Positions 1-5,190 of a stretch of DNA of 7,359 nucleotides are shown in pieces. Positions within the stretch are counted from its first letter, which is position 1. Each line of letters begins with the position of its first letter. The translations under genes were made by a program, and so were the position numbers. Source of the stretch: Actinomycetes bacterium (GTDB lineage Bacteria; Actinomycetota; Actinomycetes; Propionibacteriales; Nocardioidaceae); contig JAKPAQ010000562.1 of NCBI GenBank assembly GCA_029779385.1, forward strand, positions 1-7,359. Reading direction: 5' to 3'. Below the pieces are notes generated by a model, which worked only from the letters and a program-made list of their open reading frames with translations, was not told where the DNA came from and made no database searches.

Positions 1-297
1 GCGATCGCCCGATTGCTGGAGCAGTGGCCAGCAGGGGTAACCGGCAACGTAGTCATCGAGGTGCCCGGTCCAGGCTCCAAGCAGGACTTGGCGACACCGG
101 CTGGCGTGAACGTTGTTTGGGTGCACGGGTCGGCGGCATGGATCGCTGAAGTTGAGGCGCTGAAGCCGTCCGCGCAGACGCGTTTTTGTTGGCTTGCGGG
201 CGAGTCAGGTGCTGTTCGGCGGCTCAGAAAGTTCGCTTCAACCGAATTAGCGATTGCTCGCGACTGCCTAGACGCCACCGGTTACTGGCGAGCTTGA
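1..297 (+). CDS. Siderophore-interacting protein (ViuB/SIP-type FAD-binding ferric-siderophore reductase), C-terminal part
   Basis: The reading frame is open from the first base, so the N-terminal FAD-binding domain lies outside the window and the TTG at 13 is not a real start. The 98 visible residues match the C-terminal NAD(P)H-binding SIP domain. They begin with AIARLLEQWPAG, continue through an EVPGPG strand-loop, and end with WLAGESGAVRRLRK and the family-typical terminus TGYWRA. In this family the protein reduces ferric siderophore complexes in the cytoplasm, using NAD(P)H and FAD, to release iron. The stop is TGA at 295-297. No siderophore biosynthesis or transport gene is visible on this side. 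No convincing intrinsic terminator follows: a 5-bp stem (273-277 with 286-290) overlaps the end of the gene but is too far from the T-rich stretch at 304-312. Family assignment is confident; substrate is unknown. Confidence 0.85.
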   Translation, partial: AIARLLEQWPAGVTGNVVIEVPGPGSKQDLATPAGVNVVWVHGSAAWIAEVEALKPSAQTRFCWLAGESGAVRRLRKFASTELAIARDCLDATGYWRA

Positions 298-338
298 CAA
301 ACGTTTCTTTTTGGGATCCTGCACTCGCGGCCTAGTGG

Positions 339-377
339 AAAACAAATTGTGGAAAAAAATTGCAATCTTTTTTCATT
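339..377. other. AT-rich island, possible DNA unwinding element
   Basis: 31 of 39 bases are A or T, in sharp contrast to the G+C-rich surroundings. The core is a run of seven A (353-359), the 8-bp palindrome ATTGCAAT (359-366) and a run of six T (368-373), giving a nearly symmetric A-tract/T-tract element. Two direct copies of GTGGAAAA (335-342 and 349-356) lie 14 bp apart at its left edge. The composition and the position beside DnaA boxes fit a duplex-unwinding element or intrinsically bent DNA. It is not a good intrinsic terminator because the stem would be almost all A-T. Confidence 0.4.
348..356 (-). promoter_or_regulatory. DnaA-box-like 9-mer inside the AT-rich island
   Basis: Read on the minus strand this is TTTTCCACA, 8 of 9 matches to the DnaA box TTATCCACA. 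A weaker copy (TTTTCCACT, 7 of 9) lies at 334-342 on the same strand, 14 bp away. The box is oriented opposite to the main array at 439-513. Confidence 0.4.
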
Positions 378-385
378 CCACACCT

Positions 386-396
386 TGTGACTCACA
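386..396. promoter_or_regulatory. Compressed inverted repeat TGTGA-C-TCACA
   Basis: Perfect half-sites TGTGA (386-390) and TCACA (392-396) flank a single base. The same half-sites recur at 418-422 and 429-433 with the normal 6-bp spacer. A 1-bp spacer would not fit a standard Crp-type dimer, so this may be a degenerate site, a half-site or chance. Confidence 0.25.
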
Positions 397-415
397 TTTA
401 CGCAGGTCAGACGCC

Positions 416-435
416 ATTGTGACGGTCGTCACAAT
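416..435. promoter_or_regulatory. Crp/GlxR-type operator palindrome
   Basis: A perfect inverted repeat has 9-bp arms ATTGTGACG and CGTCACAAT around the 2-bp centre GT. Inside it lies exactly TGTGA-N6-TCACA (418-433), the consensus bound by Crp/FNR-family cAMP receptor proteins, including GlxR of corynebacteria and the mycobacterial Crp. It sits 3 bp before the first strong box of the DnaA array and about 220 bp upstream of the dnaB start. The match to the motif is seen directly. That a Crp-like protein binds it, and that it controls dnaB or initiation, is inference. Confidence 0.55.
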
Positions 436-438
436 CGA

Positions 439-513
439 GTATCCACAAGTTCCTCCACCGACTGTGCACAATCAACCTCGGCGTTTTCCACAGGAATCTC
501 GAATTTATGCACA
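439..513 (+). promoter_or_regulatory. Array of four phased DnaA-box-like 9-mers
   Basis: Reading the plus strand, boxes start at 439 (GTATCCACA, 8 of 9 to TTATCCACA), 462 (CTGTGCACA, 7 of 9 to TTATNCACA), 484 (TTTTCCACA, 8 of 9) and 505 (TTATGCACA, full match to TTATNCACA). The second is nearly palindromic, and its minus-strand reading at 463-471, TTGTGCACA, is 8 of 9 to the TTGTCCACA form used by many high-GC actinobacteria. Start-to-start distances are 23, 22 and 21 bp, about two helical turns, so the boxes face the same side of the helix. This arrangement is what cooperative DnaA assembly would use. Individual boxes are imperfect; the spacing and clustering are the stronger evidence. Confidence 0.6.
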
Positions 514-646
514 ACCCCTGTGCGTGCTCATCTCGACCCAGTTGAATCGGACCCGTATGGTCGCAGAGGTGGTTGTTTCGGGACTTCACCGCGACTGATT
601 CTGTCGGGGCACCCTCCTAGAGTTTTACTACCAACACGCCTGTCCC

Positions 647-652
647 GAGGAG
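647..652 (+). promoter_or_regulatory. Ribosome binding site of dnaB
   Basis: GAGGAG lies 4 nt before the GTG at 657. The purine core AGGAG is canonical but the spacer is on the short side. It supports GTG 657 as the start. Confidence 0.6.
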
Positions 653-656
653 CCTT

Positions 657-2066
657 GTGAGCGTCACCGATTCCTATGAGTCCGAACCAACGCGGTCGGC
701 TGGATCGGCATACACTCCGCCCCAGGACATGGCCGCCGAGCAGAGCGTTCTTGGCGCGATGCTGCTGTCGAAGAATGCGATCGACCCAGCCAACGACTTG
801 CTTGAGGGGCGTGACTTTTACCGTCCAGCCCACGAACTGATCTTTGACGTAATCACCGAACTGTTTAACCGTGGAGAACCGGCCGATGCAGTTACCGTCG
901 GAGCCGAACTTGCGCGCCGTGGCGAGATCGGCCGCATCGGCGGGTCGGCCTATTTGCACGACCTAGTCCAAGGTGTACCGATCGCGGCCAACGTCGACTA
1001 CTACGCCCAGATCGTTCACGAAAAGGCCGTACTTCGCCGGTTGGTCGAAGTGGGTCAGCAGGTTGCACAACTTGGCCAGTCCGGAACCGGCGAACTCGAA
1101 GACATCGTAGATCGCGCTCAAAAGGCCGTGCTCGACGTTGACGGTACGAAAACGAACGATGACTATGCGCCGTTGGCCGATCTCGTCCCAACGACGATTG
1201 ACGAACTCGAAGAACTACAAAACCGTTCAGGTGAAGTCAAGGGCGTCATGTCCGGGTTCCCCGATCTTGATCGGTTGACCACCGGTTTTCGCGCCGGCCA
1301 GATGATCGTGGTCGCCGCTCGCCCCGGTGTCGGAAAGTCGACACTCGGTTTGGACTTTGTCCGGCACGCGTCGATCCGGCAGGGACTCACCTCGGCGGTC
1401 TTCAGTTTGGAAATGTCCAGTTCGGAAATCGCGATGCGAATGCTCTCGGCTGAGGCGCGAGTCGGTATCCATCACATGCGTGGCGGCACGATGTCCCAAC
1501 ACGACTGGGAATCCATCGGCAAGGTCATTAGCAATGTTCAAGCCGCGCCGATCATCATCGACGACAGCCCGAACATGACACTGCCCGAAATCCGCTCCAA
1601 GGCGCGACGCATCAAGAAGCAACACGGCTTGGACTTCATCGTGCTGGACTACTTGCAGCTGATGACTTCGGGAAAACGCGTCGAAAGCCGCCAGGTAGAA
1701 GTTTCTGAATTCAGCCGCCAAATCAAGCTTTTGGCCAAAGAGCTTGAAATTCCGGTCGTCGCGATCAGCCAGTTGAACCGAGGCTCCGAGCAACGCACCG
1801 ACAAGACTCCTCAGTTATCTGACTTGCGTGAGTCCGGCTCGATCGAACAGGACGCTGACATCGTCATGTTGCTGAACCGGCCTGACCAGAACAGCACCGG
1901 CGAACCAGAACGACCCGGCGAAGGCGACATCATCGTGGCGAAGAACCGATCCGGCCCGGTCAACCGAGTCTCGGTCCTGTTCCAGGGTCACTATTCGCGG
2001 TTCACGCCATTGGCTCACGACATCGAACCAGAATCCGGCGGGGCCTCGGCTGCCGACTTTGGCTGA
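657..2066 (+). CDS. dnaB: Replicative DNA helicase DnaB
   Basis: Encodes the hexameric 5'-3' helicase that unwinds the chromosome at the replication fork, is loaded at the origin with DnaA's help, and recruits primase. The protein is 469 aa, normal length for an intein-free DnaB. An N-terminal helical domain (about residues 22-165, starting PPQDMAAEQSVLGAML) contacts primase. A linker follows, then a RecA-like ATPase domain from about 196. Visible motifs are Walker A ARPGVGKST (221-229, K227), catalytic-glutamate motif SLEM (E252), Walker B FIVLDYLQLM (327-336, D331), the H3 segment SQLNRGSEQR onward (371-401), and H4 KNRSGP (429-434) with the arginine-finger region at R431. Many actinobacterial dnaB genes carry an intein; this one is uninterrupted. 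The GTG start is supported by GAGGAG. In most actinobacteria dnaB follows rpsF-ssb-rpsR-rplI; here a SIP reductase and a 359-bp regulatory region precede it. It converges with the P450 gene, 11 bp between stops. Confidence 0.97.
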   Translation: MSVTDSYESEPTRSAGSAYTPPQDMAAEQSVLGAMLLSKNAIDPANDLLEGRDFYRPAHELIFDVITELFNRGEPADAVTVGAELARRGEIGRIGGSAYLHDLVQGVPIAANVDYYAQIVHEKAVLRRLVEVGQQVAQLGQSGTGELEDIVDRAQKAVLDVDGTKTNDDYAPLADLVPTTIDELEELQNRSGEVKGVMSGFPDLDRLTTGFRAGQMIVVAARPGVGKSTLGLDFVRHASIRQGLTSAVFSLEMSSSEIAMRMLSAEARVGIHHMRGGTMSQHDWESIGKVISNVQAAPIIIDDSPNMTLPEIRSKARRIKKQHGLDFIVLDYLQLMTSGKRVESRQVEVSEFSRQIKLLAKELEIPVVAISQLNRGSEQRTDKTPQLSDLRESGSIEQDADIVMLLNRPDQNSTGEPERPGEGDIIVAKNRSGPVNRVSVLFQGHYSRFTPLAHDIEPESGGASAADFG

Positions 2067-4074: not shown

Positions 4075-5190
4075 ATGAATGAACCGTTGGAGTTTAAGAC
4101 TCTGGATCGCGAAATTGGTAAACGTGATCGGCTAGCAGAACCGCCCGAATCTGGAATCAGCACGACGCTGTTTCTGCCGGGCGCCGAACCAGTCCCGCAG
4201 GTTAGTGAAGTGTCAGTGGTCGAACCGGGGGTGAGACTGGGTCAACGGGATACGTTTCGGATTGACCTGGACTTGCCACGGCGCGAGCTTGGCGTTCACG
4301 CGGTTCCGCCGGGGTTGGCTGGAACGAAACTCTCGAAGCGACGCAAACTACTTCGTGAGGAAGACGCACCGACCGAGGTCGGAGGTTTTCTGCCTGACCA
4401 TCTGGCTCGGCGCGTGCGTCCCGAAAAGTTAGACCGAAAATTCGCGCGGCGACTCAAGACCGTCGAACCGACCGAGGACGATCCGCGAATCCCGACCACG
4501 ATCTTCGGCAACGACGACCGCTACTGGTTCAACGACACCGCTTTCCCGTGGTGTACGACCGGTCGGGTAGAAACCTCAAACGGCGGGTGGGCGTCAGGGG
4601 CAATGATTGGTCCGAGGCACTTGCTGACCTGCAGCCACGCGATCGGTTGGAATACCCGCCCGGATCCGTATGTAGCGGGCTGGATCAAGTTCATGCCCAG
4701 TTACTTCGACGGTTCGACGCCATTTGGTGAAGCGTGGGGAACTCACATTTACTGGCAAGAGCAAGTATTCGGGCCATGGATTGACGGCACCGAATCCCTG
4801 CACGACTACGTCGTAGTGGTGTTGGATCGGCCGATTGGCAACCTGACTGGCTGGATGGGTTCGCGTTCATACACCGACGCTTGGGACGGCGGAAACTACT
4901 GGAGTCATATTGGCTACCCACAGGACGTATCCGGCGGGACTCGGCCAATTTTCGTCGGCGGCTTCTCGATGGACGGTGACGACAACACGCCAGATTCGGC
5001 CCAGGCGCTGTACCACCAAGCCGATGTCATTCCGGGACAGTCCGGTGGCCCGATGTTTGGTTGGTGGCCAGGTGAGCCGTGGCCGAGAGTCGTAGCCGAT
5101 CAGAGTTGGCAGAACACTGGATCGAACGGGGCTAGCGGCGGCTCGAAAATGGTCGACCTAGTGATTAGGGCCAGAGCTGATTTCCCGTAG
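4075..5190 (+). CDS. Trypsin-fold serine protease without signal peptide
   Basis: A 371-aa protein with a chymotrypsin-like (S1, V8-like) peptidase domain in its C-terminal two thirds. The catalytic triad can be read directly: H188 in LLTCSHAIGW, D244 in SLHDYVVVVLDRP, and S323 in PGQSGGPMF. The strand HIGYP (278-282) precedes the substrate-pocket region, as in glutamyl-endopeptidase-like members. The domain runs from about 155 to 367. The first 140 or so residues are charged, rich in Arg, Lys and Glu (especially 84-128), and match no domain I recognise. They could be a pro-region, an adaptor or a binding segment. There is no N-terminal hydrophobic stretch, so Sec or Tat export is not indicated, unusual for this family in Gram-positives. 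Tryptophan is notably frequent in the protease domain. The gene stands alone on its strand, divergent from the phosphatase and convergent with the DUF4203-like gene. Target and activation mechanism are unknown. Confidence 0.88.
   Translation: MNEPLEFKTLDREIGKRDRLAEPPESGISTTLFLPGAEPVPQVSEVSVVEPGVRLGQRDTFRIDLDLPRRELGVHAVPPGLAGTKLSKRRKLLREEDAPTEVGGFLPDHLARRVRPEKLDRKFARRLKTVEPTEDDPRIPTTIFGNDDRYWFNDTAFPWCTTGRVETSNGGWASGAMIGPRHLLTCSHAIGWNTRPDPYVAGWIKFMPSYFDGSTPFGEAWGTHIYWQEQVFGPWIDGTESLHDYVVVVLDRPIGNLTGWMGSRSYTDAWDGGNYWSHIGYPQDVSGGTRPIFVGGFSMDGDDNTPDSAQALYHQADVIPGQSGGPMFGWWPGEPWPRVVADQSWQNTGSNGASGGSKMVDLVIRARADFP

Follow-up and report, generated by a model that had tools for sequence, protein, structure and literature searches.

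In mycobacteria, purified DnaA of M. tuberculosis enriches five regions, one of which lies upstream of dnaB; the homologous regions were bound by DnaA in M. smegmatis as determined by ChIP-seq, and a mycobacterial DnaA mutant with reduced binding upstream of dnaB under-expressed dnaB (PMC7738170). In Caulobacter, a distant lineage, DnaA boxes are predicted upstream of dnaB, and dnaB is placed within the DnaA regulon (review, PMC8203912). We analyzed a stretch of 7,359 nucleotides (the window, meaning the whole of that stretch) in which an array of DnaA boxes precedes dnaB. It has in common with Caulobacter the predicted boxes, and with the mycobacterial region a candidate DnaA site upstream of dnaB, the mycobacterial one being tied to dnaB expression (PMC7738170); however, the two Mycobacterium-group loci in our survey had 0 and 2 boxes, were without the 9-mer GCAGGTCAG at up to one mismatch, and were without the register of sites seen in the window. 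Since DnaA binding is nevertheless reported there, box counts do not map in any simple way onto binding.

The window is, by its sequence, Aeromicrobium-like; its DnaB protein has 83-85% identity to named Aeromicrobium proteins, rising to 95% for a protein from a metagenome. The features upstream of dnaB are collected in Table 1. A 371-aa protein encoded further along, at 4075-5190, matched Trypsin_2 below the threshold (E 0.0017, 19.5 bits, cut-off 27.6) and could be a divergent serine protease. An Rfam search of 200-900 for structured RNA gave zero matches up to E = 5.

Table 1. Features at the start of the window, with positions counted from its first nucleotide.
Feature	Position	Strand	Remarks
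Siderophore-interacting protein (SIP) gene, end part	1-297		
Intergenic region, 359 bp	298-656		between SIP gene end and dnaB
DnaA-box-like TTTTCCACA	348-356	-	inside AT-rich stretch 340-373
Box 0, CATTCCACA	374-382	+	TCCACA core at conserved -25 relative to companion motif
Companion motif GCAGGTCAGA	402-411	+	contains 9-mer GCAGGTCAG; invariant in window and eight relatives
Box 1, GTATCCACA	439-447	+	
Weak site TCCTCCACC	451-459	+	lies between boxes 1 and 2, at one helical turn; TCCcC position conserved at +52
Box 2, CTGTGCACA	462-470	+	invariant in window and eight relatives
Box 3, TTTTCCACA	484-492	+	
Box 4, TTATGCACA	505-513	+	
Likely -10 TATGGT, main dnaB promoter	556-561	+	42 bp after box 4; by eye from alignment; -35 weak
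Second promoter-like site TGTCGG-N10-TAGAGT	602-623	+	exact PafBC motif match
dnaB, replicative DNA helicase	657-2066	+	

The preliminary description had named five boxes, four starting at 439, 462, 484 and 505 with start-to-start distances of 23, 22 and 21 bp, and a fifth at 348-356 on the minus strand; all were found in place and correctly spaced, and the adjoining segment that it gave as about 79% A+T measured 0.79 at 340-373, 0.77 at 340-374 and 0.74 at 334-375. To these we add box 0, the weak site and the conserved companion motif, together with an exact TTGTGCACA on the opposite strand at 463-471, overlapping box 2. When boxes were scored as TTRTSCACA with at most one mismatch, overlapping matches being merged, the intergenic region gave 5 matches against a mean of 0.36 and a maximum of 3 in dinucleotide shuffles, none of 2000 reaching 5. 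The window as a whole was less striking (7 matches, 3.58 expected, with 7 reached in 15 of 200 shuffles); all 7 of its box matches fall inside the intergenic region. A perfect inverted repeat, ATTGTGAC-GGTC-GTCACAAT (TGTGA-N6-TCACA), separates the companion motif from box 1 at 416-435; only the three closest relatives retain part of it, and we take it to resemble a CRP/GlxR site. A second short inverted repeat, TTGTGACTCACA, is found at 385-396.

The array is not private to the window; it is a rigid composite element present in much of Actinomycetia. When the window was aligned with eight genomes having 71-84% DnaB identity, boxes 1 and 3 were almost invariant, beside the wholly invariant GCAGGTCAGA and box 2. 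The survey was then made of 84 loci, consisting of the window, two sets of 16 and 27 loci, and 40 loci hand-picked from the listed DnaB places, leaving out L112 (its genome is the same as that of L003) and L115 and L116 (a contig end shortens the upstream stretch). Three or more boxes were present within 250 bp upstream of dnaB at 68 of the 84 loci, which are kin rather than independent samples and by selection lean toward genomes with similar DnaB; the remaining 16 include both Mycobacterium-group loci. Background was taken from 262 segments of 700 bp drawn from ten of the surveyed loci, where three boxes occurred in a single segment, and the mean density per 700 bp was 4.29 boxes at the 84 dnaB loci vs 0.10 in the background. 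In each of the twelve Nocardioidaceae loci (L001-L012), four or more boxes fell in the 700 bp preceding the dnaB match.

The 9-mer GCAGGTCAG was present upstream of dnaB exactly at 51 of the 84 loci and with up to one mismatch at 60, while 24 had none even at one mismatch. Forty-seven elements, defined by an exact 9-mer with a box-like site preceding it, could be superimposed without gaps over positions -30 to +68 relative to the 9-mer, and TCCACA, GCAGGTCAG, box 1, the weak site and box 2 keep their register over this span of about 100 bp. Four genomes of 7-10 Mb (G188, G179, G267 and G065), presumed Streptomyces-like by their size and layout only, have dnaB towards the middle of a long contig and carry the element 33-36 kb from dnaA; three of them match the 9-mer exactly, and G188 has one mismatch. 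S. coelicolor is said to have DnaA-box clusters H24, H69 and D78 near oriC and outside of it, reportedly described by Smulczyk-Krawczyszyn and colleagues in 2006, a nearness to oriC which is seen here as well; presumably one of these clusters may be the dnaB element, because the four Streptomyces-like genomes carry the element at the distance given.

The element keeps company with dnaB. In relative G112, SIP is followed by MATE, which diverges from dnaB, and then by the element and dnaB; in the window the order is SIP, element and dnaB, MATE being absent from this interval; the SIP fragment of the window is 51% identical to the G112 SIP. That the element might be part of the divergent MATE gene was ruled out, since the window retains the element without a MATE gene there. 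The genes dnaA and dnaB were on the same contig in 37 of 39 genomes, at distances of 19-124 kb (median 41 kb), so that a function depending on proximity to oriC is possible. The exceptions were G036 and G010. In G010 some 472 kb separate dnaB from the closer end of its contig, dnaA sits on a different contig, and the element is still found.

As would be looked for at a DnaA-regulated promoter, five boxes are clustered near the likely dnaB promoter, the last of them 42 bp before the -10-like site. We consider the element to be a DnaA-bound control region of dnaB, most likely an activating one, and assign this reading a probability of roughly 0.75. The array, its conservation in a fixed register, its keeping with dnaB and its freedom from a DnaA-trio are present data; we infer DnaA control in the organism of the window, and activation as the sign of that control. 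DnaA would bind an array of sites in helical phase, most of them in one orientation (box 0, box 1, the weak site, and boxes 2, 3 and 4), whose end lies some 40 bp short of the likely -10 of the main dnaB promoter, a second protein would probably read the companion motif GCAGGTCAG inside the array, and bound DnaA would most likely activate dnaB, whereby the supply of helicase would follow DnaA. Activation is the best reading because of the mycobacterial DnaA binding together with the dnaB expression of the mutant. Among the roles weighed in the preliminary description, the DnaA-regulated dnaB promoter is thus backed by conservation, by geometry and by the published mycobacterial binding (PMC7738170), while the relocated oriC found no support, and the judgement that each possibility is unusual does not hold, the element recurring in most surveyed loci; boxes that were not conserved in close relatives would have counted against that description, and the opposite was seen.

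The second promoter-like site has the form TGTCGG-N10-TANNNT, which is the PafBC motif as printed in PMC8151990, where dnaB is also reported to be induced by mitomycin C in a partly PafBC-dependent manner. The site is probably a second, DNA-damage-inducible promoter of dnaB. The TGTC(A/G)G form of the motif was present in 29 of the 84 dnaB upstream regions and in 5 of the 8 close relatives.

Readings in which the control of dnaB is not the point must be weighed against this one. A datA-like titration site near oriC would hold DnaA and damp initiation, its place before dnaB being secondary, and we regard this as unlikely. The S. coelicolor clusters near oriC would suit such a site, as would the distance of 19-124 kb between the element's gene and dnaA in 37 of 39 genomes; however, G010 keeps the element though its dnaB is far from dnaA, some 40 bp separate the end of the array from a conserved -10-like site, and the element stays with dnaB though the neighbour gene changes. 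DnaA-box clusters analogous to datA in B. subtilis and S. coelicolor are reviewed as repressing untimely initiation (PMC5742627), whereas for the site before dnaB one DnaA mutant ties binding to dnaB expression (PMC7738170). Very improbable, in our estimate, is a DARS-like site which would convert ADP-DnaA to ATP-DnaA. The likeness would consist in boxes that are compactly clustered and accompanied by a further motif. Regulation accounts better than reactivation for the position close to the promoter and for the published connection with dnaB expression (PMC7738170). Titration or reactivation of DnaA is possible as a side function of the dnaB control region.

The preliminary description had called the region origin-like, and one part of this holds, in that the companion motif is common to the element and to oriC. 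That a relocated oriC should lie here is not supported. Phased boxes, an AT-rich neighbour and the shared 9-mer are what an origin would offer; however, dnaA and dnaN were together in all 13 relatives searched, and the AT-rich stretch, at 0.79 in the window vs 0.38-0.56 in the eight relatives, is peculiar to the window rather than a conserved unwinding stretch. Downstream of dnaA, an unwinding-type module, made up of a pair of box cores with a trio-like run after them, was found in 30 of 38 genomes, using a pattern loose enough that at least one of the 30 (L087) looks like a chance match, whereas no DnaA-trio run follows the boxes in 45 of the 47 dnaB elements, that of the window included. GC skew over 200 kb in four relatives was weak; it was net negative between dnaB and dnaA in G112, G208 and G252, which fits replication arriving from the dnaA side, and the minimum of G034 was at the edge of the stretch and hence uninformative. 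The cumulative minima in the other three were 15-24 kb beyond dnaA, away from dnaB, and none was exactly at dnaA. A second or relocated chromosomal origin is, on these grounds, the least probable of the readings and can hardly be entertained.

Further box clusters are present in the relatives. There were six in the 200 kb around dnaA of G188, with 13 boxes at oriC and 4 at dnaB, and the densest cluster of G034 is not the one at dnaB. The skew minima named above were at +20.1 kb (G208), +23.7 kb (G112) and +14.7 kb (G252) from dnaA, and DnaA-box clusters lie within about 2 kb of them, at +20.4, +22.6 and +12.6 kb respectively. The G208 cluster (L146, 434-488) is just 3' of crgA (Pfam CrgA), and a cluster of G034 at +46.9 kb from dnaA (L157, 6904-6988) comes after cyclophilin and rhomboid genes. 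These two clusters are possible counterparts of the Rv0010c-Rv0011c DnaA site in M. tuberculosis; the study reporting that site saw no counterpart in other species (PMC7738170).

The companion 9-mer is shared by the dnaB element and the actinobacterial oriC, and in both it stands together with DnaA boxes, as CTGACCTGC or GCAGGTCAG; the oriC copy lies 22-23 bp from two boxes which are then followed by the DnaA-trio-like run. With the search confined to the span 9-32 bp ahead of the unwinding boxes, CTGACCTGC was found exactly in 7 and with up to one mismatch in 17 of the 30 origins having the module (38 genomes examined), and all 17 were at 22 or 23 bp; 200 letter permutations of the 9-mer gave a mean of 0.14 and a maximum of 9. 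Among 18 loci inspected upstream of dnaA (less than 300 bp was available at five), it was exact at 2 and had one mismatch at 1, and it was exact upstream of dnaA in G208 when the contig ends were joined. Across 18 genomes RTYNNYGCAGGTCAGM gave 157 matches vs 16 for the reversed control. A DnaA box was within 200 bp at 5 of 16 further motif sites and at none of the other 11, and the motif is therefore real but not confined to DnaA sites; a tRNA gene was present at 4 of these 16 loci. The pattern CCACA-N15-20-GCAGGTCAG matched in 129 of 296 genomes, with many matches elsewhere and the reversed control also matching often; among the matches listed, at least 30 by hand count sit a few hundred bases upstream of dnaB. 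Copies resembling GTTTnCGCAGGTCAGA were seen near tRNA genes (L237, L241, L244 and L248) and, by eye, in inverted pairs (L252 and L260).

No publication on such a motif was among the top titles of a broad motif-letter search of the open-licence literature. A 9-mer beside both the dnaB boxes and the oriC unwinding boxes is possibly new, a claim we make weakly because the search covered open-licence papers and its matches were in part broad. We infer a protein partner for GCAGGTCAG, and a second protein probably reads it within the array. More tentatively, and with the odds somewhat against it, GCAGGTCAG could be the site of an undescribed actinobacterial replication factor acting jointly with DnaA both at oriC and at the dnaB promoter, and in some species also at the dnaA promoter, making a composite switch that would run both origin opening and helicase supply.

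That DnaA binds upstream of dnaB in mycobacteria, and that it controls dnaB in Caulobacter, is already in print; what is added here is a rigid composite element across much of Actinomycetia, and a 9-mer at a fixed place beside the oriC unwinding boxes. If a protein reads this 9-mer, two short probes would suffice to fish for the reader, and that reader would be a missing regulator linking origin firing with the supply of helicase.
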